Below, one piece after another: positions 11,064 through 56,736 of a stretch of 64,000 nt of DNA. The stretch comes from Hydrogenimonas urashimensis (lineage in GTDB: Bacteria > Campylobacterota > Campylobacteria > Campylobacterales > Hydrogenimonadaceae). The stretch spans positions 1,768,501-1,832,500 of the forward strand of contig NZ_AP023212.1 in the NCBI RefSeq assembly GCF_016593255.1. The letters run 5' to 3'. The notes under the pieces are model-generated. The model did not search any database. It was not told the origin of the DNA and saw only the letters and a program-made list of their open reading frames with translations. Position 1 is the stretch's first letter. Every line of letters begins with the position of its first letter. The position numbers and the translations under genes were made by a program.

Positions 11064-11744
11064 ATGCCTCTTTCTGACCCTGCCGGGGCGTCCGACGCTC
11101 CGGTGCTCCTCGAAGCCCACGGGCTTACCCATGCATTCGACTATACCCTTTTTGAAAACATCGATCTGACCATTCGTGAGAATGAGAGAGTCGCGGTTGT
11201 CGGTGTCAGCGGCAGCGGCAAATCGACGCTGCTGCACATTCTTGCGACACTGTTGAAACCGCAGCGCGGCGATGTTCGCCTGCTGGGGTCGGACATCTAC
11301 TCCCTCACTGCCCGCGAGCAGCTTGCGATACGGCGGTACGAGATAGGTATCATCTTTCAGTTCCACTACCTTTTCAAGGGGATGAGTGCCGCCGAAAATA
11401 TCGAAATCGCCACATTACTTGGCGGAACGGAGCCGGACGGGGAACTGCTTGAACGACTCGGCATCGAGAAAGTTATCGAGCAGAGGGTGACGGAACTTTC
11501 GGGAGGGCAGCAGCAGCGTGTTTCCATCGCGAGGGTCCTGGCCAAAAATCCGCGCCTCATTTTCGCCGACGAGCCCACCGGCAACCTGGATGACGAGACG
11601 GCCCATATCGTCATGGATGCGATCTTCGACCATGTGGAGAGAGTCAAGGGCATGCTTTTTCTGGTCACGCACGACAGACGCATCGCAGAAAGCTGTGACC
11701 GGATCTATCGGCTTGAACATACGAGACTGGAGCCGATTCGGTGA
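11064..11744 (+). CDS. LolD-like ABC transporter ATP-binding protein
   Basis: A 226-residue ATPase subunit of the MacB/LolD/FtsE class. Walker A is GVSGSGKST (about residue 46), the Q-loop is IIFQFHYLFKG, the signature is LSGGQQQRV (about 143), Walker B is LIFADEPTGN and the switch histidine is in VTHDRR. No permease lies next to it, so its membrane partner is elsewhere; lipoprotein release is the likeliest role by resemblance. It begins seven bases after tsf and overlaps fliR by four bases. The same gene sits at this position in C. jejuni as I recall. Confidence 0.9.
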   Translation: MPLSDPAGASDAPVLLEAHGLTHAFDYTLFENIDLTIRENERVAVVGVSGSGKSTLLHILATLLKPQRGDVRLLGSDIYSLTAREQLAIRRYEIGIIFQFHYLFKGMSAAENIEIATLLGGTEPDGELLERLGIEKVIEQRVTELSGGQQQRVSIARVLAKNPRLIFADEPTGNLDDETAHIVMDAIFDHVERVKGMLFLVTHDRRIAESCDRIYRLEHTRLEPIR

Positions 11745-12511
11745 GCTGGTACAGCCTGCTCCAGCCCGATCACATCTACACCTTTTTGCTCCTCTTCGTC
11801 CGGCTTTCGACACTCTTTGTCTTTCTTCCCTTCTTCAGTCACATGTCGGTCTCCCCTTCGATCAAAGCGGCATTCGCCTTCTATCTTACCCTCGTGCTCT
11901 ACCCCATCGTTCAGACAACGCCGGAACCCGCAAGCGTCGGGCTCTTTTTCGCCGCCCTCTTTTCGGAAATCGTCATGGGGCTGATTGCCGGTGTGGTCTT
12001 GAATATCGTTTTCGGGATTTTCGCCTATGCCGGCGAACAGATCGCTTTTGTCATGGGGTTTTCGCTGGCGAGCGTCATCGATCCGCAAAGCCAGATACAG
12101 TCCCCGCTCGTCAGCCAGTTTCTCACGATGATGGCCCTGCTGATTCTGCTGGCATTCGACGGGCACCACATGATGCTGATCTGGATGGTGAAGGCTCTGA
12201 AAGGGGCGCCTTTGGGGGGACTGGTGCTCGATCCGAAGATGTTCGACTATGTCATGGGCGCGATGGGCAATCTTTTTATGCTCGGATTCTCCGTCGCCTT
12301 TCCGATCGTGGCGCTCTCGCTGCTTTCTGATATCATTTTCGGAATGCTGATGAAGACGATGCCCCAGTTCAACCTGCTCGTTGTCGGTTTCCCCATCAAA
12401 ATCGCCCTTTCGCTTATGGTCTGGATGGCCGTACTGGGTTCGATGATGCTTCTTTTCAAGAGGGAGTTCGTAGATGCGGTCGGTGTTTTGATGAAGTGGA
12501 TAGGAGGATGA
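11741..12511 (+). CDS. fliR: Flagellar export apparatus protein FliR
   Basis: FliR, 256 residues, is an integral membrane component of the flagellar type III export gate with FliP and FliQ. The sequence has about six hydrophobic segments, an FFSHMSVSPSIKAAFAFYL stretch near residue 28 and the conserved FAYAGEQIAFVMGFSLA near residue 90, ending with VVGFPIKIALSLMV. The start is GTG at 11741, overlapping the ABC gene (GTGA), so translation is coupled. It is the only flagellar structural gene in the window and implies a motile organism. Confidence 0.95.
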   Translation: MSWYSLLQPDHIYTFLLLFVRLSTLFVFLPFFSHMSVSPSIKAAFAFYLTLVLYPIVQTTPEPASVGLFFAALFSEIVMGLIAGVVLNIVFGIFAYAGEQIAFVMGFSLASVIDPQSQIQSPLVSQFLTMMALLILLAFDGHHMMLIWMVKALKGAPLGGLVLDPKMFDYVMGAMGNLFMLGFSVAFPIVALSLLSDIIFGMLMKTMPQFNLLVVGFPIKIALSLMVWMAVLGSMMLLFKREFVDAVGVLMKWIGG

Positions 12512-12544: not shown

Positions 12545-13087
12545 TCAGTAGGGTGTTGCCGAGCGCATCATTCTTTCGAAGGAGCGCTCCAGGCGTTTTG
12601 CCGCAGCGTAATCGTCGATGAAAAGGATGACTTCGTAATTCTTCCCAAAAGCGGAATAGGTCCAATTGGCCGATCCAAGGACGACATGGCGACTGTCGAC
12701 CACCATCATTTTCATGTGCATCAGCGCCCGGTCGCCGTCGGGATCGCGGTAGGGCTTGCCCGCCAGAAGCATTGTTTCGATGTTTCTGTATTTCGCGAGG
12801 TAGCCGAGCTGGCTTTTGCGGTTGCGCAGGTTGGCCGACCTGTCGAAAATAATGCGTATCTTTACTCCCCTGCGGGCCGCATTTTTCAGATGTTTCGCAA
12901 TGGTTTTGTGGGTGAAGCTGTAGATGGCGGCGTCGATACGGTCGTGAGCGTTGTCGATCGTTTTGGTGAGTGTTCTCAGGGCGTCGCGCGCTTCGTAGGG
13001 AAGAGTGAAAAGACGGCTTTTGGCAGGCTGGGCCGAAGCGGCGGCCAGGAGTGCCAGGAGTATGATGAGCGGCCGGAAGATACGCAT
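12545..13087 (-). CDS. NucT-like secreted phospholipase D-family nuclease
   Basis: A 180-residue single-HKD protein. A signal peptide or anchor (PLIILLALLAAASA) leads into a phospholipase D fold with DAAIYSFTHKTIAKHL and one catalytic HKD motif, HMKMMVVDSRHVVLGSANWT (about residues 126-145). One motif per chain means it should work as a dimer. In Helicobacter pylori the similar NucT is a surface-associated nuclease supporting DNA uptake and purine scavenging. AGGA lies six bases before the ATG. It sits on the opposite strand between fliR and the acidic gene. Confidence 0.82.
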   Translation of the reverse strand: MRIFRPLIILLALLAAASAQPAKSRLFTLPYEARDALRTLTKTIDNAHDRIDAAIYSFTHKTIAKHLKNAARRGVKIRIIFDRSANLRNRKSQLGYLAKYRNIETMLLAGKPYRDPDGDRALMHMKMMVVDSRHVVLGSANWTYSAFGKNYEVILFIDDYAAAKRLERSFERMMRSATPY

Positions 13088-13171: not shown

Positions 13172-14638
13172 ATGCGTATACTGTTAATCAATCAGAATCC
13201 GATCGTCTCCAAACTGGCAGGACTCAGCGCCCAGAAGTCGGGTTACGAGATCGTGGAAGAGTTTTCTCTCGATGAGATGGAAAGAGGAGACTACGATGTT
13301 CTTTTCATCGACAGTGCGAAACTTGACGCAGAGACCCCCGAGACGCTAAAAAGGCGCACGGGTGTCAAACGGACCTGCCTGATCTATGCGGAAGACGAGG
13401 AGAAGATACCGGGTTTTGACTACTACATCAAAAAACCCTTCCTGCCGACGGAGATGGTGGATTTGATGGGTGAAATCAACGACGACCTGCTGTTCCCGGA
13501 GATGGAAGCGCAGGAGGAAAAGAGCATGGAAGAGACAGCGCCCTCGGAACCGTCGGTGGAGGCGGGGTCGGAACCGGTGGGCGAAGAGCTCGAAAAGGAA
13601 GCGGCGTCGGAGGAGGAGAAGATCGTCGGGGCCGAAGATTTCGATATGCTGCTAGAAGAGCTCGAAGCGGAAACGCACGAAGCAGAGAAAGAGGAGGAAG
13701 CAGAAGCGGCCGAAGAGGATTTCGAGGCCTTGATGGCTTCACTCGAAGCACAAGAGGGAGCACAAGAGGCCACTCCGGCACCTTCCGCCGCCGAAGAGGA
13801 GCCCATTTTCGAAGCGGAGGAAGAGACGAAAGAAGAGGCGGAGGCTATGCCCGAAAAAGCGGAGGCGACCGAAGAGGCCGGTGAAGCGTTTGATTTCGAC
13901 AAACTGCTCGAGGAGGTCGAGGTTACGGAGGAGACGGAAACGGCAGAGGGTGCCGAAGAGGATTTCGAGGCGCTTTTGGAGGGCTTGGACCTTGAGATAG
14001 CGGAAAAAGAGACGGTCGAGGAGGAGCGTGCCGAAACACCGCAGGAGGAGATCGGCGAGGAGGAAGAACCCATCAGTCTGCCCGAGCCGGAAGAGCCGGC
14101 GGGCGGTGTGCTTGATGAAGAACTCGTCACCGAAGTGAAAGAGCTTCTCGGAGAAGAGCCCCAAAGCGGCACCGAAGAGGAAGAGGAGCTCACAGAACCC
14201 GAATGGCTCGAAGCGGCTCTTTCGGAAGAGAGGGAAGGCGAACCCGAAGAGGCACAGGAGACAGTCGGCGAAAAGGCGGCGGAAGAGGAGATGCCAGAAG
14301 AGATATCGCTGGAGGAGATCGAGGGCCTGGAGATGTTGGAGGATGAGACGCCGCAGCTTCCGCAAAGCGATGAGTTCGCCCAGATTTCAGAAGAAGAGCT
14401 CGGTGCCGTTCTTGGTGAGGAGATTGCCGAAGAAAGCGGTGTTCTGAGCGAGCCCGCGGCAGAGAAGCAGATCGAAAAAGAGGAGCTTCAGGCGGCAGAG
14501 AAAGAGGAGAGGCCGGCCGCGACGGGAGCGGAGGGTGTACTCATATCCCGACTGCTCGGCACCGATCCCGAAGCGCTGCGCAAACTCCTCGCCGGTGCAG
14601 AGATCACTATCAACATCAGCTTTCCGAAGGATGTGTGA
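13172..14638 (+). CDS. Highly acidic protein with a degenerate receiver-like head and repeated hydrophobic motifs
   Basis: A 488-residue protein equivalent in position to the 'highly acidic protein' between fliR and gmk in C. jejuni. Residues 1-105 look like a response-regulator receiver: a beta-strand ILLIN, then VLFIDS with an aspartate at 47, and the KKPF loop at 87-90; the usual N-terminal acidic pair is missing (N7, N9). Residues 110-450 are Glu-rich and probably disordered, but carry spaced hydrophobic motifs of similar form: EDFDMLLEELE, EDFEALMASLE, FDFDKLLEEVE and EDFEALLEGLD. A folded tail, GVLISRLLGTDPEALRKLL, closes it. The gene neighbourhood suggests a flagellar or polar role; no function is established to my knowledge. 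Confidence 0.75.
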   Translation: MRILLINQNPIVSKLAGLSAQKSGYEIVEEFSLDEMERGDYDVLFIDSAKLDAETPETLKRRTGVKRTCLIYAEDEEKIPGFDYYIKKPFLPTEMVDLMGEINDDLLFPEMEAQEEKSMEETAPSEPSVEAGSEPVGEELEKEAASEEEKIVGAEDFDMLLEELEAETHEAEKEEEAEAAEEDFEALMASLEAQEGAQEATPAPSAAEEEPIFEAEEETKEEAEAMPEKAEATEEAGEAFDFDKLLEEVEVTEETETAEGAEEDFEALLEGLDLEIAEKETVEEERAETPQEEIGEEEEPISLPEPEEPAGGVLDEELVTEVKELLGEEPQSGTEEEEELTEPEWLEAALSEEREGEPEEAQETVGEKAAEEEMPEEISLEEIEGLEMLEDETPQLPQSDEFAQISEEELGAVLGEEIAEESGVLSEPAAEKQIEKEELQAAEKEERPAATGAEGVLISRLLGTDPEALRKLLAGAEITINISFPKDV

Positions 14639-14641
14639 TAG

Positions 14642-15259
14642 ATGAGTAACTTTGGATCGATTCTGATCATATCGGGCCCCAGCGGTGCGGGAAAGAGTTC
14701 GCTGATCAAGGCGGCCGGCGACAAAATAGGCGACTACTACTTCTCCATCTCCACCACCACCCGTGCGCCCCGCGAGGGAGAGCGTGACGGCATCGACTAT
14801 TTTTTCGTCGACAAGGAGACTTTCGAAGCCGACATCAGGGCCGGAGAATTTCTGGAGTATGCGCAGGTGCATGGCAACTACTACGGAACCTCTCTCAAAC
14901 CGGTCCGCGAAGCACTGGAAGCGGGGAAGCTGGTCATCTTCGATATCGATGTGCAAGGACACGCCATCGCCCGGGAGCGGATGGGAGACCTGATCACCTC
15001 TGTTTTCGTGACGACGCCGACACTCGAAGAGCTAAAACGGCGGTTGAAACACCGCGGGACGGATAATGAGACGATCATACAAAACCGTATCGAAAACGCC
15101 CTGATAGAGATCGAGTACATCACCGCCTACGATTTCCTGATCGTCAACGACGATTTCGAAAAGGCTCTCGACTCCTTCATCGCCGTCGCCAAGGCCGCCC
15201 GCCTCAAAAAAGGCCGCAAACAGGCCCTGCAGTTCATCAACAAATGGCGGGGCCAATGA
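14642..15259 (+). CDS. gmk: Guanylate kinase
   Basis: Gmk, 205 residues, phosphorylates GMP to GDP with ATP. The P-loop GPSGAGKSS is near residue 12, the GMP-binding stretch STTTRAPREGERDG follows at about 35-48, and the lid has the usual RRLKHRGTDN. Length and domain order are standard for the bacterial enzyme. It starts three bases after the stop of the acidic-protein gene, so the two are probably translated from one mRNA. Confidence 0.97.
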   Translation: MSNFGSILIISGPSGAGKSSLIKAAGDKIGDYYFSISTTTRAPREGERDGIDYFFVDKETFEADIRAGEFLEYAQVHGNYYGTSLKPVREALEAGKLVIFDIDVQGHAIARERMGDLITSVFVTTPTLEELKRRLKHRGTDNETIIQNRIENALIEIEYITAYDFLIVNDDFEKALDSFIAVAKAARLKKGRKQALQFINKWRGQ

Positions 15260-55320: not shown

Positions 55321-55776
55321 ATGCGACGTGGTTTTACAATGATTGAGTTGATCTTCGTGATCGTGATTCTGGGTATTCTGGCAGCAGTCGCCATTCCGAA
55401 GCTCGCAGCAACGCGTGATGATGCGAAAATTTCGAAAATGGCAAGCAATATTCAGACCGCGAAAAACGAAATCGCTTCCTACGTGGTATCCCAGGGCGGG
55501 ACCGATACGAACTGGACGCTCGCGACTTACAAGAAGGCTTCCAACGTCATCAGTGAAATGGCCGCTACCGGTGAAATCAATACGACATCCAACAACGGAC
55601 ATGATGTCATCCAGTTTGTCGACACAGACAACGGCGCGGTATGTATTACACTCGAATACAACGGAACCGATATTCTTATTGCCCAAAAAGATGAAGACAG
55701 CCGAATTTGTGACGGTGTCAAAAGTATGGTCAAAGAGGTCAACGTAACTGTCGCAGGACAGGGTGTCAAGTACTAA
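55321..55776 (+). CDS. Type IV pilin-like protein 1 (prepilin)
   Basis: A 151-residue prepilin-like protein. The leader MRRG is cleaved before FTMIELIFVIVILG, the classical prepilin peptidase site with phenylalanine at +1 and glutamate at +5, followed by the hydrophobic assembly helix. The rest is a small globular domain with two cysteines (AVCITLEYNG and SRICDGVKS), probably a disulfide loop. AAAGGAG precedes the ATG. It is the first of three related pilin-type genes leading into priA. Pilin-like genes are known here in C. jejuni. Confidence 0.88.
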   Translation: MRRGFTMIELIFVIVILGILAAVAIPKLAATRDDAKISKMASNIQTAKNEIASYVVSQGGTDTNWTLATYKKASNVISEMAATGEINTTSNNGHDVIQFVDTDNGAVCITLEYNGTDILIAQKDEDSRICDGVKSMVKEVNVTVAGQGVKY

Positions 55777-55784
55777 TCGACGTT

Positions 55785-55832
55785 ATAATTTTTCCATCAT
55801 ATTAAAAGGGGAGGAGTGGAATACTCCTCTCC
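55785..55832 (+). promoter_or_regulatory. Promoter-like box and hairpin before pilin gene 2
   Basis: TATAAT at 55785-55790 follows the stop of pilin gene 1. The hairpin GGGGAGGAGT (55808-55817), loop GGAAT, ACTCCTCTCC (55823-55832), with one mismatch, then lies near the expected 5' end of the transcript. It could instead end the first pilin transcript. Confidence 0.45.
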
Positions 55833-55841
55833 GTTGACAGA

Positions 55842-56336
55842 ATGAGATTTGATAAAATGAAATTGAAGAAAAAATCGATGTCCCGCGCTTTTACAATGAT
55901 TGAATTGATTTTTGTTATAGTGATTCTCGGCATTCTTGCCAGTGTCGCTGTAATGAAACTCAATGCCACGAGAGAGGATGCGCAGATCTCTTCCATCAGC
56001 GGAAGGGTATCGGCCATTTTGGGTGAAATCTCCTCGCATGCCGTTGCCAGTGCCACCTTGGACGGCAACGTGACACACTATTCCAACATCGCCCAGGAGA
56101 TGGTGGCCAATGGTGAGGCCACCGTCGAAAATACAGCGGATACGACTCGTCTGAAGATCAGGGCAGGGGAGGTTCCCGAATGTCTCGTTCTGAAGATCAT
56201 TCACAGCGTGACGGAGGAGAACCTCTCACTCGAAATGAATTCGGATGAGAACGATTATGTATGCCGTGGTGTGCAGCGGCAGCTGGCCGACAGGAATGTT
56301 ACGTTGCGTATAAGGGGAAGAATTGCAAAATACTAA
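55842..56336 (+). CDS. Type IV pilin-like protein 2 (prepilin)
   Basis: A 164-residue prepilin-like protein if read from 55842. The peptidase site is MSRA before FTMIELIFVIVILG, with alanine at -1 instead of glycine. The ATG at 55878 would give the short leader MSRA, like its neighbours; neither start has a good ribosome-binding site, so the exact start is uncertain. The globular part has two cysteines (PECLVLKI and NDYVCRGVQ). Its last 14 bases overlap pilin gene 3. Confidence 0.82.
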   Translation: MRFDKMKLKKKSMSRAFTMIELIFVIVILGILASVAVMKLNATREDAQISSISGRVSAILGEISSHAVASATLDGNVTHYSNIAQEMVANGEATVENTADTTRLKIRAGEVPECLVLKIIHSVTEENLSLEMNSDENDYVCRGVQRQLADRNVTLRIRGRIAKY

Positions 56337-56736
56337 ACGTGCCTTTACCATGATCGAACTGATTTTCGTCATCGTGGTTATCGGTATACTCGCTTCCATC
56401 GCCATGCCGAAACTCTGGGTAACGCGGACCGATGCGATCATTTCGAAGGGGCGTGCGGAAGTTTCGACCATACGAAGCGCCATTGCGACGGCCCATCAAA
56501 AAAATATGATGGAAGGAAACAACAGTTACCTTTCAACGCTCGACGACGGCACGACACTTTTTGGAAAAATACTGGATTACGGCATGCCTTCCGATACATC
56601 GCCGGGACATTGGAGCAAAAGCGGAAGCCACTATGTCTATCATATTGACTACGATACCAATGCCACTTTCGAATACAACGCCACGACAGGACGTTTTGAC
56701 TGTATCAGCGGAAGCTGCACGACTCTGACGCATTAG
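56323..56736 (+). CDS. Type IV pilin-like protein 3 (prepilin)
   Basis: A 137-residue prepilin-like protein with leader MQNTKRA before FTMIELIFVIVVIG. The start is a TTG at 56323 within the end of pilin gene 2, with GGGGAAG just upstream, so it is translated by coupling. The C-terminal half is a short beta-rich domain with one cysteine pair (FDCISGSCTTL) near the end, as in many minor pilins. The three genes together look like major and minor (pseudo)pilins of a type II secretion or DNA-uptake pseudopilus. Confidence 0.85.
   Translation: MQNTKRAFTMIELIFVIVVIGILASIAMPKLWVTRTDAIISKGRAEVSTIRSAIATAHQKNMMEGNNSYLSTLDDGTTLFGKILDYGMPSDTSPGHWSKSGSHYVYHIDYDTNATFEYNATTGRFDCISGSCTTLTH

Follow-up and report, generated by a model that had tools for sequence, protein, structure and literature searches.

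ChePep of Hydrogenimonas: a pseudo-receiver core retained in genomes without flagella, and an acidic chain with putative chemotaxis docking peptides

What is the function of a receiver-like domain followed by a Glu-rich chain of several hundred residues? This question is raised by an open reading frame in the stretch of Hydrogenimonas urashimensis DNA analysed here (64,000 nucleotides, hereafter the window). The frame codes for 488 residues, and no whole-protein family was found for it in Pfam or NCBIfam. The first-pass annotation of the window gave its coordinates exactly, placed it in a conserved slot beside fliR, and proposed a scaffold for polar or flagellar assembly. The placement needs correction: a PLD-family gene on the opposite strand intervenes, and the neighbour that stays constant is gmk, which follows chePep after a gap of 3 bases. 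The genes at the locus are as follows.

13172-14638, plus strand: chePep, 488 amino acids, ATG at 13172, stop codon ending at 14638; orthologs adjoin gmk across the phylum
14642-15259, plus strand: gmk (guanylate kinase), constant neighbour of chePep
11741-12511, plus strand: fliR (PF01311), gone from the site in aflagellate relatives, which keep chePep
12545-13087, minus strand: PLD-domain nuclease-like gene, between fliR and chePep

The small PLD-domain gene also adjoins chePep in locus L134, which is of the H. pylori type, and in loci L096 and L097 of family f9. Elsewhere in the window (55321-56736) three type IV pilin-like genes stand in a row, and their N-termini (FTMIELIFVIV) are nearly identical.

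By the match of its head profile and its synteny with gmk, the frame is the Hydrogenimonas ortholog of ChePep, a known Campylobacterota regulator of swimming direction. A head profile from which H. pylori-type and C. jejuni-type (g11) proteins had been left out recognised both types of ChePep at E 1e-16 to 1e-19, and in each type the gene lies directly upstream of gmk; HP0322 of H. pylori and Cj1178c of C. jejuni adjoin gmk as well. The H. pylori-type genome encodes a FliM that matches PDB 4gc8, which we take to be an H. pylori entry, with full identity over about 208 residues, and the C. jejuni-type label of the g11 genome rests on the ENIEEN repeats in its ChePep. With gmk as an anchor, the ChePep head was found generally across the phylum in the frame directly upstream; the head is present in 16 of 18 Hydrogenimonas genomes. 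The Hydrogenimonas protein has the features by which ChePep is recognised, namely a receiver-like head, a Glu-rich and poorly conserved middle, and a position directly upstream of gmk.

ChePep is described in PMC11237671 as a chemotaxis protein found only in Campylobacterota. In H. pylori it is polar, and CheZ needs it for polar localisation (PMC11237671 and PMC7750401), the localisation of the two proteins being mutually dependent according to PMC5447363. Mutants in chePep hyper-reverse in both H. pylori and C. jejuni (PMC9665402), and in H. pylori the excess of reversals is described as resembling that caused by loss of CheZ. The forms from H. pylori (HP0322), C. jejuni (CJJ81176_1193, Cj1178c) and Hydrogenimonas have in common a degenerate receiver head with D47 and KPFLP, a variable Glu-rich middle, a 14-residue segment that we call the LGE box, and the site upstream of gmk. 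The Hydrogenimonas form differs in having DFxxLLxxLE motifs and a mid motif, VLDEELVxEVKELL, not found in the other two, and its tail, of the INISFPK type, matches theirs weakly. Its main parts can be listed thus.

13172-13486, plus strand: head, residues 1-105, a degenerate receiver (pseudo-receiver) that keeps D47 and K88-P-F-L-P, has N7/Q8, and lacks alpha-4
13487-14527, plus strand: Glu-rich, low-confidence and probably disordered middle, residues 106-452, from composition and the full-length model
14102-14155, plus strand: mid motif GGVLDEELVTEVKELLGE, residues 311-328, occurring with and without flagella
14537-14635, plus strand: conserved C-terminal tail VLISRLLGTDPEALRKLLAGAEITINISFPKDV, residues 456-488

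The AlphaFold2 model of the head alone (pLDDT 89, pTM 0.83) has five strands in receiver order; of the (beta-alpha)5 flavodoxin-like fold of receivers, alpha-4 is missing and alpha-2 is weak. The earlier reading of this domain as a degenerate receiver, against which a non-receiver fold would count, is broadly consistent with the model: the best 50 PDB fold matches listed are all receivers or response regulators (TM 0.61-0.76, E 1e-5 to 1e-4). A profile of 14 diverse heads, run against PDB sequences, found receivers in at least 44 of 48 matches, each of them weak (E 1e-3 to 1). The acidic pair of active receivers (D12/D13 in CheY numbering) is replaced by N7 and Q8, position 7 being mostly N across the phylum, and the phospho-acceptor Asp (D57) and the Lys (K109) have counterparts in D47 and in K88, which is followed by P89-F90; D47 is present in 47/47 flagellate heads. 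FrzS of Myxococcus xanthus carries a coiled coil. Like ChePep, FrzS is a polar motility protein in which a long chain bears an atypical receiver domain (PMC1974792); it lacks the phospho-Asp that ChePep keeps as D47, and our comparison of the two covered the receiver domain.

The acidic chain after the head is likewise as first described: residues 106-452 are 36% Glu, with a net charge of -118. Other genera have unrelated acidic repeats in ChePep, such as ENIEEN or LDLDDLDLGEE. The longest ChePep frame observed by far, 1312 residues in locus L086 (G307), retains the head, the LGE box and the tail. In the ChePep of a MAG that is labelled Helicobacter cetorum (L059:2135-4063) there is a tandem array of units of about 17 residues (DDSLSLDDDLNLDEEPKE) with a masked stretch inside. 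We rejected the mid motif as a chemotaxis feature, since its frequency is independent of FliM (36/64 genomes with FliM, 27/48 without). Most named records with this tail are Hydrogenimonas MAGs. Our first tail profile, A2, missed the tails of the H. pylori and Campylobacter types, and these ChePeps were recovered by gmk synteny and the head profile. The full-length AlphaFold model (pTM 0.22) is too poor for placing the tail on the head.

How closely is this protein bound to flagella and chemotaxis? FliM is absent from 53 of 397 genomes of the phylum, and all of the 53 except G402, a fragmented MAG, are also devoid of any CheW-domain protein, and therefore of CheA, CheW and CheV. CheZ was matched in 0 of 32 tested FliM-less genomes, compared with 15 of 18 flagellate controls. 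A ChePep homologue stands beside gmk in 44 clearly aflagellate genomes and 4 uncertain ones (G316, G327, G379, G402) of 51 that could be judged, two FliM-less genomes without a gmk hit having been left out; it is absent from G102, G231 and G394 only. Some loci in the comparison gave partial ChePep. Several aflagellate Campylobacter-type loci have the order tsf, ABC ATPase, chePep, gmk. In these fliR is gone and chePep still sits with the ABC gene on its upstream side and gmk on the other, so the slot is not tied to fliR. Flagella and chemosensory genes have been lost in Sulfurovum/Nitratifractor and in a subclade of Campylobacter, and the native F3 class has been lost in Arcobacter and replaced in Nitratiruptor (PMC9321776, which merely cites ChePep). 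Families f4 (Sulfurovum-like), f7 (Arcobacter-like) and f9 (Nitratiruptor-like) and genus g17 (non-motile Campylobacter) were assigned by gene content and this published pattern. Our literature search, which covered sources other than the two primary ChePep papers, returned no report of ChePep in aflagellate lineages.

Aflagellate heads keep K88-P-F in 41/41 cases, L91-P92 in at least 40/41 and D47 in 37/41, and pairs of aflagellate sequences give dN/dS of 0.1-0.35 for the head and 0-0.19 for the tail. By these ratios, head and tail are under purifying selection in genomes without flagella, and the core function of ChePep is therefore probably not chemotaxis.

Which part, then, may connect ChePep to chemotaxis? 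The best candidate lies near the C-terminus.

14381-14422, plus strand: LGE box QISEEELGAVLGEE, 14 residues (404-417), candidate dock for the native chemotaxis system

The box has the form xLSExELxxALGEE. It was called by a leave-one-genus-out PSSM, at p<=0.01 relative to shuffled versions of each sequence; it had been noticed in the same data before testing, a circularity which such scoring reduces and does not remove. The box was found in 38/57 genomes with native FliM, compared with 3/44 aflagellate and 0/7 divergent-FliM genomes, or, by genus, in 22/27 genera with native FliM and 1/10 aflagellate genera (Fisher p=3e-10 by genome, an optimistic value, as the genomes are related, and about 1e-4 by genus). 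The contrast holds within families: 7/8 flagellate against 0/11 aflagellate genomes in f3, the latter all of genus g17, and 4/4 against 0/5 in f8, so that neither length nor composition by itself accounts for it. In f4 the box is in the single flagellate genome and in 0/26 others. There are exceptions on both sides, as all 3 genomes of genus g54, without FliM or CheW, keep an LGE-like box, and 19/57 flagellate genomes fall below the threshold. When 46 proteins of the window and the FliM and CheZ of the same genome were scanned with the LGE-box PSSM, the box scored 23.7 and the next best segment 9.0. The terminal peptides of FliM (N-terminal) and CheZ were not among the high scorers, so the LGE box may be a motif distinct from the CheY-binding peptides. 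The simplest reading of these patterns is that the LGE box is the best candidate for a chemotaxis dock, to CheZ or to CheY. In family f8, locus L111 (G265) combines a divergent FliM (E 4e-58, compared with about 1e-77 in its genus) with a shortened ChePep without the box, which suggests flagellar replacement with trimming of ChePep.

In Hydrogenimonas, the acidic chain has in addition an array of short motifs.

13625-13672, plus strand: DF motif 1, VGAEDFDMLLEELEAE, residues 152-167, from motif counts and PSSM scan, nearly invariant in the genus alignment
13706-13753, plus strand: DF motif 2, AAEEDFEALMASLEAQ, residues 179-194, from motif counts and PSSM scan
13880-13927, plus strand: DF motif 3, GEAFDFDKLLEEVEVT, residues 237-252, from motif counts
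13949-13996, plus strand: DF motif 4, GAEEDFEALLEGLDLE, residues 260-275, from motif counts and PSSM scan

The annotation had reported at least four spaced DFxxLLxxLE motifs, and we count four copies of DF[DE]xL[LM], at residues 156, 183, 241 and 264; shuffling of the same residues gives a mean of 0.02 copies and never more than 2 in 20,000 shuffles. Among 13 complete Hydrogenimonas homologs the number of motifs varies from 1 to 5 and head and tail are conserved, the pattern for which the first-pass annotation had asked that homologs be checked; within the genus, motif 1 has a nearly invariant core between changing flanks. Outside Hydrogenimonas the motif is mostly absent (it is present in a few others), and neither H. 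pylori nor C. jejuni ChePep has it. The motifs resemble the CheY-binding peptides at the N-terminus of FliM and the C-terminus of CheZ, which are short acidic amphipathic helices of the SxEE[IL]xALL kind. In this genome FliM starts with MADILSQEEIDALLEAV, and CheZ starts with MTQEELDAIMAG and ends with SNEEIEALIAQFGGGEKNG. Unlike these, the DF motifs come in several copies, internal to a long chain, and have F at the first hydrophobic position in place of I/L.

The likeness also appears in rank order. A PSSM trained on FliM-N, CheZ-N and CheZ-C peptides, with ChePep left out, put the LGE box and three of the DF motifs immediately behind the training peptides, in ranks 4-7 among 14,652 sequence windows, in a scan of the 46 window proteins with the N-terminal region of the genome's own FliM and its CheZ. 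With the same PSSM, 9/13 ChePeps of the genus score above shuffles of their own composition (p<=0.05), the acidic composition of ChePep being one that favours loose matches. Outside Hydrogenimonas the signal is not significant and fails to tell flagellate genomes from aflagellate ones; we rejected there the idea of FliM-like CheY-binding motifs common to all ChePeps, and CheY-binding mimicry is therefore proposed for Hydrogenimonas only, where three DF motifs and the LGE box follow the S-x-E-E-[IL]-[DE]-A-L-[LIM] type of CheY-binding peptide. We propose, from sequence likeness, that they are putative mimics of the FliM/CheZ peptides. CheZ of Campylobacterota (L159:2015-2710, minus strand; L147, L149 and other loci) has two FliM-like peptides, an N-terminal MTQEELDAxMxG and a C-terminal S/N-DDIEALIxxxG.

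Taken jointly, these results lead us to regard it as probable that ChePep is a polar pseudo-receiver scaffold with putative CheZ/CheY docking peptides, composed of an ancient core and an acidic chain. The pseudo-receiver head and the C-terminal tail would form an ancient, signal-independent core at the pole, with a job unrelated to chemotaxis. In lineages with a native flagellum, the core would carry a long acidic chain whose LGE box docks CheZ (or CheY), and in Hydrogenimonas this chain would add several DFxxLLxxLE helices as mimics of the peptides by which FliM and CheZ bind CheY. Such a polar patch would concentrate CheZ and, near the motor, would capture and dephosphorylate CheY-P again and again, which would keep the reversal rate low. 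We are evenly divided on a broader proposition, that ChePep is not primarily a chemotaxis protein and that its core of head and tail (perhaps a pole marker) bears a swappable acidic module. The module, with its LGE box and, in Hydrogenimonas, its CheY-binding mimics, would plug the core into the native F3 chemotaxis system and would be trimmed when that system is lost or replaced.

Were ChePep solely chemotactic, its aflagellate copies would have to be passive leftovers, kept by the operon structure of gmk, for instance as a translational leader. The gene is indeed nearly fused to gmk here and always directly upstream of it; however, the selection on head and tail and the retained head residues described above speak against this account, independent aflagellate lineages all keep ChePep, and the three genomes without chePep have an intact gmk, so that chePep is not required for gmk. 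We consider such passive retention improbable. The suggestion that ChePep is a scaffold for flagellar assembly or placement draws on its reported polar position and the nearby fliR, but chePep mutants of H. pylori assemble motile flagella and the C. jejuni mutant swims and over-reverses (both from published accounts), and the gene persists in genomes without a flagellum. The polar tether role in the original proposal is supported by the known polar position of ChePep and its recruitment of CheZ, and the role in flagellar assembly is not supported; we give the latter very little credence.

Another doubt concerns the DF motifs, which might be low-complexity expansions without a specific partner, head, LGE box and tail alone being of importance. 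Their confinement to Hydrogenimonas and a few others, their varying number and place, and the unrelated acidic repeats of other genera would fit this, yet the core of motif 1 is held constant while its flanks change, the copy number far exceeds expectation, and the motifs specifically resemble the CheY-binding peptides of the same genome. We judge such expansion unlikely, though less so than passive retention. The four motifs in the Glu-rich middle, along with the recruitment of CheZ by ChePep, are consistent with the multivalent tether that the first-pass annotation had suggested.

In H. pylori, ChePep governs chemotaxis and the colonisation of gastric glands, and the comparison yields a 14-residue candidate docking site that is directly mutable. 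The same protein is retained in lineages without any chemotaxis. A multivalent CheY trap, if true, would localise a phosphatase reaction beside the motor in a new manner.
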